From positions 1 to 64,000 of the forward strand of contig CAIJPD010000066.1 of the NCBI GenBank assembly GCA_903822495.1: DNA of 64,000 bases, in the 5' to 3' direction. A program made the translations under genes and the position numbers. Positions 62,156-64,000 of the stretch are shown in pieces (the first letter of the stretch is position 1; each line of letters opens with the position of its first letter). The stretch is from an uncultured Chloroflexota bacterium (GTDB lineage: Bacteria > Chloroflexota > Limnocylindria > Limnocylindrales > CSP1-4). Under the pieces are notes generated by a model. That model searched no databases. It was not told where the DNA came from and saw only the letters and a list, made by a program, of their open reading frames with translations.

Positions 62156-62751
62156 CCGTAGCGCTCCCGGCGCACCAGATCCTCGAGCGGCTTGCGCGCC
62201 GTGCCCGGGGCCACCTTGGGCGCTCGTCCGGCCTCCGTGGGGTACCCGATCGAGACCATCGAGCGCAGGACCTGGTCCTCCGGGACGCCGAGGAGCGCAC
62301 CGATCTCCGCCTGGTGCTCCCGCCGCACGCGGCCGATGGCGCTGGCCAGGCCGTGGGCGGTGGCCGCGATCATGATCCGCTCCGAGAGGCGACCCTCGTC
62401 GTAGCTCTCGTTGTCCGGGTTGCCGTGCGGCACCGTGGCGATGCAGATCACGACCGGGGCGATGCCGATGTGCGGCGTGTAGGTGGCAATCTCGGCCATG
62501 CGCGCCCGGGTGGCCGGCTCCGTGACGATGATGAAGGTCCACGGCTGGCGGTTGCCGCCGCTGCCCGTCCAGCGGGCGACGTCCAGGATATCGGTGAGGA
62601 TGGATTCCGGGACGGCGGTCGGGAGGAAGTCCCGGACCTGGCGCGTCCGCTTCAGGACGTGCGTCACGGCGGCCGGGGCGGGTCCCGACGTTGGCGCGGC
62701 GGGCGGGTAGGGGGATGGGGTGGGGGCGGTGCGGTCCCAAGCGTTCGACAT
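62152..62751 (-). CDS. nitroreductase-family FMN oxidoreductase
   Basis: A 199-residue NAD(P)H:FMN nitroreductase-family protein. Visible are the FMN-phosphate-binding start KRTRQVRDFLPTAVPESILT, ARWTGSGGNRQPWTFIIVT, and the late SMVSIGYPTEAGRAPKVAPG with KPLEDLV. It is the first gene of the nitroreductase / GMC small / GMC large operon. The -10 box TAGACT lies 6 nt before the ATG, so the mRNA is probably leaderless. Its substrate could be the quinone or enone product of the GMC enzyme, but that is conjecture. Confidence 0.85.
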   Translation of the reverse strand: MSNAWDRTAPTPSPYPPAAPTSGPAPAAVTHVLKRTRQVRDFLPTAVPESILTDILDVARWTGSGGNRQPWTFIIVTEPATRARMAEIATYTPHIGIAPVVICIATVPHGNPDNESYDEGRLSERIMIAATAHGLASAIGRVRREHQAEIGALLGVPEDQVLRSMVSIGYPTEAGRAPKVAPGTARKPLEDLVRRERYG

Positions 62752-62757
62752 GACGCC

Positions 62758-62763
62758 AGTCTA
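62758..62763 (-). promoter_or_regulatory. -10 box for the leaderless nitroreductase operon
   Basis: TAGACT on the minus strand ends 6 nt before ATG 62751, with no Shine-Dalgarno sequence between. Confidence 0.5.
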
Positions 62764-62803
62764 GCGAAGCCATCGCCCCGGAAGCACCCGGTGCGAGCGT
62801 GCT

Positions 62804-62809
62804 ACCCTT
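62804..62809 (+). promoter_or_regulatory. -10 box of carA
   Basis: TACCCT on the plus strand predicts a start site near 62816 and a leader that contains the two PyrR-loop-like motifs. It is divergent from the nitroreductase promoter 41 bp away. Confidence 0.45.
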
Positions 62810-62825
62810 CGATCATCCTTTCGTT

Positions 62826-62874
62826 GCTGGTCCCGTGAGGCCGGCGTACCGGTCCCGTGAGGCCGGGAAGGAGG
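62826..62874 (+). promoter_or_regulatory. tandem PyrR-binding-loop-like RNA motifs before carA
   Basis: Two near-identical hairpins: GCTGGTCCCGTGAGGCCGGC (62826-62845) and CCGGTCCCGTGAGGCCGG (62849-62866), the second running into GGGAAGGAGG. The shared TCCCGTGAGGC core matches the UCC-n-G-n-GAGGC pattern of PyrR-binding loops known from pyrimidine-operon leaders. The second hairpin abuts the ribosome-binding site, so binding of PyrR (with UMP) could block initiation. pyrR itself is not in the window. Confidence 0.55.
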
Positions 62875-62884
62875 CTTGTCCACC

Positions 62885-63013
62885 GTGTCCGGGTCCATCC
62901 GCGGCGCCGCTCGCCGCCCATCGCAGCCCGTGACCGGTCTTCCCGTCCCGATTCCGGGACGGCGCTCCCGTGGACCCGTCGCCGGCACCCCATGTCCGGG
63001 AGTCAGCGCTTGA
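62885..63013 (+). CDS. possible 42-residue leader ORF overlapping carA start
   Basis: GTG 62885 lies 10 nt after GGAAGGAGG, the only good ribosome-binding site of the leader. It opens a 42-codon frame that ends in TGA overlapping a TTG in the carA frame (TTGA at 63010-63013). It may couple carA translation to the PyrR-controlled site, or simply be the remains of an altered carA N terminus. The peptide is Arg/Pro-rich and unrecognised. Confidence 0.35.
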   Translation: MSGSIRGAARRPSQPVTGLPVPIPGRRSRGPVAGTPCPGVSA

Positions 63014-64000
63014 TCCTGCCGCCGCCGCCGCGCTCCAGCGCCGTCGTGGACCCGCGCATCGGGGACCACGGCCCGGCGCTGCTCGCGCTGGAGGACGGGA
63101 CGGTCTTCCCGGGGATCTCGTTCGGGGCCCCGCTCGCCGCCGGCGGGGACCTGGTGGTGAACACCAGCCAGACCGGCTACCAGGAGGTCTGCACGGACCC
63201 CTCGTACGCCGGTCAGGTCGTGGTCATGACGTACCCCCTGATCGGCAATTACGGCCGCCTCCCGGCCGACGACCAGTCCCTCCGGCCATGGCTGCGCGGA
63301 CTGATCGTGGCCAACGCCACGGCGGCGGTCCTCGAGGATGCGCGCCAGCTGGCCACCCTCCTGCGCGGACAGGGGATCCCCGCGCTCGCCGGGGTCGACA
63401 CCCGGGCCCTGGCCCGCCACCTGCGCGAGACCGGCTGCCTGCGCGGGATCCTGATGGCGCCGGGCGGCACGGATCCGGTGGAGGCCATCGCCGCGGCCCG
63501 CGCCGTCCGGCGCTGGGAGGACCAGGACTTCGTCAGCCAGGTCTCGCACTCGGAAGTCGTCGAGTACGGCAGCCCATCCGAAGGGGGCCCGCTGGTCGCC
63601 ATCGTGGACATGGGCCTCAAGGCCAACATCGTGCGCAGCCTCCGGCGCCGGAACGTCCGCGTCCGGGTGCTGCCCCACACCACGAGCCCCGGAGACCTGC
63701 TCTCGTCCGACGTCGACGGCGTGGTCCTCTCGCCCGGTCCCGGGGACCCGGCGCGACTGGAGGGCCTGGTATCGCTCGCCCGCGCGGTCATCGCCGACCA
63801 GCGGCCCCTCCTGGGGATCTGCCTGGGCCACCAGGTGATCGGCCGGGCAGCGGGGGCGGAGACGCGCCGCCTGCGCTTTGGTCACCACGGCGCCAACCAC
63901 CCCGTCCAGGACGTGGAGACGGGCATCGTCCAGATCACGGCGCAGAACCACGAGGTCCAGGTGGTCGGGGAGTCGCTGCCGGCCGCCAGCGGCTTCATGG
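62992..64000 (+). CDS. carA: carbamoyl-phosphate synthase small subunit (partial, runs off the window)
   Basis: The glutaminase subunit of carbamoyl-phosphate synthase, feeding pyrimidine and arginine synthesis. The frame is open to the window end, so the track omits it; ~336 residues are visible. The N-terminal CPSase_sm domain reads LALEDGTVFPGISFGA, VVNTSQTGYQEVCTDPSYAG and GVDTRALARHLRETGCLRG. The class I amidotransferase domain has VDGVVLSPGPGDP and the nucleophile Cys in LLGICLGHQVIGRA, with the later AQNHEVQV His. The start is unclear: ATG 62992, TTG 63010 (coupled to the leader ORF) or GTG 63046 (closest to usual family length). Confidence 0.93.
   Translation, partial: MSGSQRLILPPPPRSSAVVDPRIGDHGPALLALEDGTVFPGISFGAPLAAGGDLVVNTSQTGYQEVCTDPSYAGQVVVMTYPLIGNYGRLPADDQSLRPWLRGLIVANATAAVLEDARQLATLLRGQGIPALAGVDTRALARHLRETGCLRGILMAPGGTDPVEAIAAARAVRRWEDQDFVSQVSHSEVVEYGSPSEGGPLVAIVDMGLKANIVRSLRRRNVRVRVLPHTTSPGDLLSSDVDGVVLSPGPGDPARLEGLVSLARAVIADQRPLLGICLGHQVIGRAAGAETRRLRFGHHGANHPVQDVETGIVQITAQNHEVQVVGESLPAASGFM

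Follow-up and report, generated by a model that had tools for sequence, protein, structure and literature searches.

Tandem PyrR-type hairpins in the carA leader of Limnocylindrales: a candidate twin-loop translational switch

The carA leader and its features

The window, a 64,000-nucleotide stretch of DNA from an uncultured Chloroflexota bacterium of the order Limnocylindrales, carries near its right-hand end (62804-63013) the leader of carA, the gene for the first step of pyrimidine synthesis, with carB lying downstream of it. The following features were assigned to the leader.

62803-62808, plus strand: likely -10 element TACCCT, within TGCTACCCT, which recurs in the corresponding place ahead of the tandem element in carA leaders of relatives
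62816-62821, plus strand: TCCTTT, conserved in position and predicted by RNAalifold as the 5' strand of a closing stem, P1, whose partner is the Shine-Dalgarno region
62826-62845, plus strand: PyrR-type hairpin 1, 7-bp stem GCTGGTC/GGCCGGC, hexaloop CCGTGA
62849-62866, plus strand: PyrR-type hairpin 2, 6-bp stem CCGGTC/GGCCGG, hexaloop CCGTGA
62867-62874, plus strand: GAAGGAGG, Shine-Dalgarno of the leader ORF, with 62867-62872 as predicted 3' strand of P1
62885-63013, plus strand: leader ORF of 42 sense codons, GTG start, whose TGA (63011-63013) overlaps the carA start
62943-62962, plus strand: GC-rich 8-bp hairpin within the leader ORF, without a T-run and not a terminator by scan
63010-64000, plus strand: carA, TTG start (TIGR01368, E 7e-112), leaving the window and ending at about 64171 on the contig

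In RNA form, hairpin 1 reads GCUGGUC-CCGUGA-GGCCGGC and hairpin 2 CCGGUC-CCGUGA-GGCCGG, with a 3-nt spacer, GUA, between them, and GGTCCCGTGAGGCCGG is present twice (62829-62844 and 62851-62866) with a period of 22 nt. The AAGGAGG of the Shine-Dalgarno (62868-62874) starts 2 nt past hairpin 2, and TTG 62876 is a possible alternative start of the leader ORF. These coordinates bear out the preliminary description of the locus, in which two hairpin copies were placed 3 nt apart with the second adjoining GAAGGAGG, and a 42-codon leader ORF was seen to overlap a TTG in the carA frame. Since a scan of the carA leader region gave no consensus sigma-70 promoter pair, the -10 call at 62803-62808 is tentative. 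No terminator was found in the window leader by a scan of 62700-63050, which for the window supports the earlier proposal that a PyrR site may control translation at the ribosome-binding site. An Rfam match to Atu_C3 on the minus strand, at 14 bits where the cut-off is 100, was rejected as chance.

Identity and conservation of the paired hairpins

PyrR control is a textbook case of regulation, with one loop per switch. The genome studied here does hold a pyrR gene (NF003549 match, G000:C22:63282-63800, E 6.5e-76), the absence of which had been named beforehand as one of two results that would refute the PyrR reading; the gene lies upstream of pyrB and pyrC, and the closest PDB structure to its product is Thermus PyrR 1ufr. 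Both hairpins of the window have the loop motif CNGNGA on a UC..GG stem top, which is invariant in the carA leader alignment, and the loop TCCCGTGAGGC agrees in CNGNGA and the flanking UC/GG with the published PyrR-loop consensus ARUCCAGAGAGGYU (PMC7430163). The fit to the loop consensus, the neighbouring genes, the conservation and the pyrR gene in the genome together support the view, already put forward in the preliminary description, that the carA-leader hairpins are probably PyrR-type loops at the ribosome-binding site of a pyrimidine operon. The other refuting result, lack of a covariance match, did occur for RF00515 in the literal sense, as Rfam scans with this model (model length 115 positions) gave no match in the region, the whole genome or the relatives' leaders. 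This silence carries little weight, since obvious single-loop pyrR leaders were missed too, and the insensitivity of RF00515 to the lineage is its likelier explanation.

It had further been stated that PyrR loops normally occur singly. This is not a safe rule, as pairs are the norm at carA in the order, and singleness is also broken before pyrR in this genome, in Tsukamurella and in Armatimonadetes. The pyrR leader of this genome (minus strand, G000:C22 about 63860-63930; L017 8930-8800) has two loop-like hairpins at the Shine-Dalgarno, the first imperfect with a 7-nt loop CCAGUGA, followed by a leader ORF of 17 codons, the TGA of which overlaps the GTG of pyrR; most relatives have a single loop at pyrR, directly 5' of GAAGGAGG. 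A full-length pyrR match was absent from four genomes carrying the tandem element (G002, G006, G022 and G043, the element of the last being L020), possibly as a result of the incompleteness of these MAGs (91-95% complete).

A sample of 30 carA loci from the order showed two hairpins with CNGNGA hexaloops in 29, of which 27 have a spacing of 20-23 nt, and with nine further loci the pair was found in 38 of the 39 readable carA leaders. Stem pairing in both hairpins amounted to 94.9% of alignment cells, a level reached by none of 500 shuffles, and slid control versions of the two-hairpin structure paired in 15-46%. In hairpin 1 both sides of the stem have changed with the pairing retained, five sequences having AU in place of GC. 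When a covariance model was built from the pair, the window site scored 73.1 bits and the runner-up in the 3.6-Mb genome (C52) 24.9, and a tandem with stems of at least 5 bp and the same loop and spacing occurred nowhere else in 207 kb of the genome (both strands counted). Run on 301 genomes of the phylum, the model picked out 19 from the order, plus a weak match in one further genome, which was a single-loop pyrR leader. Thus, the hairpin pair before carA is more than chance or local duplication. Within the genus g3 the whole module of tandem loops, leader ORF and terminator is repeated upstream of carB, about 5-7 kb from the carA copy (L212, L213 and L219; G004:C81, G018:C118 and G032:C63).

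Another feature was noticed in family f2, whose genomes measure 1.0-1.2 Mb, where a tRNA-like sequence ending in GGCTCACCA stands directly before the carA leader (L034, L037 and L041-L043, about 1270-1370 in gene orientation). As a TATCCT box lies just ahead of the tRNA-like sequence and no obvious promoter was seen between the tRNA and the carA leader, the two may share one transcript.

Beyond the order, a loop-pair pattern scan covered a collection of 84,980 species, and the figures given here are those among the matches listed. Many Chloroflexi MAGs have the tandem in front of carA, and it stands before pyrR in at least four Tsukamurella records (spacing 22-23 nt), a Frankiaceae MAG (20 nt), at least two Armatimonadetes MAGs (19 nt) and a MAG under the label Acidobacteriaceae with an actinobacterial-looking leader, so that spacing ranges over 19-23 nt in the pyrR-preceding tandems listed. 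Most Streptomyces and other pattern matches among those listed were rejected as repeats without a Shine-Dalgarno or pyr gene. Since the pair is kept order-wide and recurs in two other phyla, it looks like a real double switch.

It could nonetheless be argued that hairpin 2, next to the Shine-Dalgarno, is the sole working PyrR site, hairpin 1 being a spacer or a spare, so that there would be no cooperativity and repression would follow the usual mycobacterial pattern with one loop. In the order, a lone loop by the Shine-Dalgarno does suffice in most pyrR leaders, and at one carA locus (L031) the stem pairing of hairpin 1 is lost; yet 38 of the 39 carA loci have kept both hexaloops and both stems, the two-sided GC-to-AU changes have kept hairpin 1 paired, and a nearly fixed loop spacing recurs in other phyla. 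We consider this reading unlikely, and favour two functional PyrR-type hairpins.

In other families of the same class the CNGNGA hairpin was absent from 12 of 13 carA leaders, and in the remaining one it was isolated, without a Shine-Dalgarno or the consensus flank. The carA genes of these sister families (L238-L250) have instead a nearly invariant, ArgR-box-like TTGCATCTTTATGCA..GTATAGTTATGCA just 5' of the ATG, and in the two such loci inspected (L239, L241) a pyrC-like ORF lies upstream of carA. This sequence pattern suggests that the regulator of carA may have been swapped between families of the class.

The predicted closing stem and the leader ORF

When 36 leaders, each extended upstream by 16 nt, were given to RNAalifold, it predicted unprompted a three-way junction, in which CCUU 5' of hairpin 1 pairs with the AAGG of the Shine-Dalgarno. 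The preliminary description had overlooked this predicted stem sequestering the Shine-Dalgarno, as well as the terminator that relatives carry in the leader ORF. The 5' segment lies 4-6 nt ahead of hairpin 1 in most loci, it pairs with the Shine-Dalgarno better than shuffles do (0/300), and in family f2 P1 is lengthened to 6-9 bp. Tsukamurella leaders have the same UCCUU..AAGGA geometry and Armatimonadetes leaders a covarying CCUUG..CAAGG, both as read from the sequences. Against P1, a locus-specific swap test was no more than suggestive (p 0.066), and the alignment of the 5' strand is uncertain by one base in several rows.

Free RNA may also fold differently, as a hairpin of copy 1 with copy 2 was predicted at -27.7 kcal/mol versus -25.4 for the junction, and is often as stable as the junction, or stabler, in the free RNA. 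The leader fold was no stronger than that of shuffles, energy z-scores being uninformative in such GC-rich sequence. As the main structure the copy 1-copy 2 hairpin is disfavoured, since replacement of GC by AU in hairpin 1 leaves the PyrR stem intact and only weakens the alternative; thus, sequence variation favours the twin loops.

A lower stem beneath the loop was predicted both at carA (CCUU/AAGG) and in folds of the single-loop pyrR leaders L051 and L053. Single-loop pyrR leaders have an AACGA-like purine-rich internal bulge and build the lower stem of the classical PyrR element from these same strands, whereas at carA hairpin 1 occupies the place of the internal bulge and leaves a GNA linker. 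Because the strands are the same ones, hairpin 1 at carA looks as if it had been inserted at the internal-bulge place.

An in-frame overlap of leader stop and carA start, in the form ATGA, GTGA or TTGA, was counted at 15 of 30 Limnocylindrales loci, and at seven of these the distance to the conserved VDxRIG motif is the same, 32 nt. Based on this recurrent overlap and distance, TTG 63010 is favoured over ATG 62992 as the carA start. At 12 of the 30 loci there is no leader ORF and carA itself starts at the Shine-Dalgarno, which indicates that a direct form of control exists too. A T-tailed hairpin inside the leader ORF was found in genera g3 and g9 and a few others; in g3 such terminators were seen at carA (L035, L036, L044, L229, L230 and L235), where the leader stop falls just past the U-tract, and at carB (L212, L213 and L219).

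The U-tailed hairpins of g3 and a few others, along with the 8-bp GC hairpin of the window at 62943-62962, raise the question of whether transcription attenuation, by hairpin or Rho, might be the main control, with PyrR keeping ribosomes off the leader ORF, as has been proposed for Thermus. This appears quite unlikely, since the window leader has no terminator-like site and the 12 loci in which carA sits at the Shine-Dalgarno need translational control. That the hairpins serve something other than PyrR, be it another RNA-binding protein, a riboswitch or a DNA operator, is very unlikely, for although they have no Rfam match, their loop follows the PyrR consensus, the confirmed cases of tandem plus Shine-Dalgarno are at the pyrimidine genes carA, carB and pyrR (so that pyrR itself carries the tandem), and the covariance match ranking second in the genome is a weak one, with no recognisable pyrimidine gene at the site.

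A candidate mechanism and its relation to known systems

In our view the window leader is likely to act as a translational switch under PyrR, which would bind its two hairpins, with a coupled shut-off of carAB. From the observed leader sequence and its conservation, the pairing of both hairpins in relatives and the pyrR gene of the genome, we infer the following course. The leader RNA would form a three-way junction with hairpins 1 and 2 as arms and a third stem made in vivo by UCCUUU, near the likely 5' end of the RNA, and GAAGGA, the Shine-Dalgarno region. With UMP plentiful, PyrR would bind both loops and stabilise the junction, hiding the Shine-Dalgarno of the leader ORF, so that ribosomes could not enter; carA, dependent on termination-reinitiation at the TTGA overlap, would then not be reached and carAB would be repressed. 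At low UMP the RNA would open, the leader would be translated and carAB expressed. In relatives with a terminator in the leader ORF the same block would free the terminator, so that transcription would be attenuated too, and in g3 a ribosome translating the leader would prevent termination, as is said to have been proposed for Thermus.

Cooperative repression by the paired loops, which had been suggested in the preliminary description, is plausible given the conserved pair and its spacing. More tentatively, the arrangement may be a distinct RNA regulator, in which two PyrR loops on one three-way junction closing over the Shine-Dalgarno would be read jointly by two PyrR units with a sharper response to UMP, and which may constitute a portable module, used at carA, carB and pyrR, that is ancient or arose repeatedly in Chloroflexota, Actinomycetota and Armatimonadota. 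Conservation of a twin-loop version offers a simple way, by mutation of the loops, to test whether an RNA-binding repressor acts cooperatively, and such a version would explain why Rfam misses PyrR control in the lineage. It also sets carA under PyrR-type sites in one order against a different conserved pre-carA sequence in sister families.

The types of mechanism involved are known from mycobacteria and Thermus, and the twin-loop junction provisionally looks new, as no conserved junction of this kind was found in the literature searched, in which primary PyrR papers were few. PyrR-dependent translational repression was reportedly described in Mycobacterium smegmatis by Fields and Switzer in 2007. 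Like the mycobacterial type, the window has a PyrR-type loop beside the ribosome-binding site that comes first in a pyrimidine operon, and a leader without terminator or antiterminator; unlike it, there are two loops in a fixed 22-nt tandem, the Shine-Dalgarno is also part of a predicted closing stem, the first ribosome-binding site serves a 42-codon leader ORF overlapping carA, and the target is carAB, away from pyrR. For Thermus ZO5, Van de Casteele and colleagues reportedly proposed in 1997 a pyr attenuation that depends on a translating ribosome. The resemblance lies in PyrR control of leader ORF translation, which is predicted here, and in the leader ORF that in some relatives runs through an intrinsic terminator; the window differs by having no U-tract terminator, by its twin loops and, together with its relatives, by placing carA or carB under control instead of pyrR-pyrB.

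With the pyr attenuators of Bacillus subtilis, represented by RF00515 (PMC7430163), the carA leader shares the hexaloop, the top-of-stem consensus and a lower stem below the binding loop, whereas it has no antiterminator/terminator pair or RF00515 match, and its two loops would share one closing stem. Tandem glycine riboswitches, paired units before an operon, have been suggested to give a cooperative response (PMC3766115). Like them, the carA leader places two copies of one regulatory RNA unit before an operon, although here a protein would be the ligand, and each unit is a 20-nt hairpin instead of a full aptamer.
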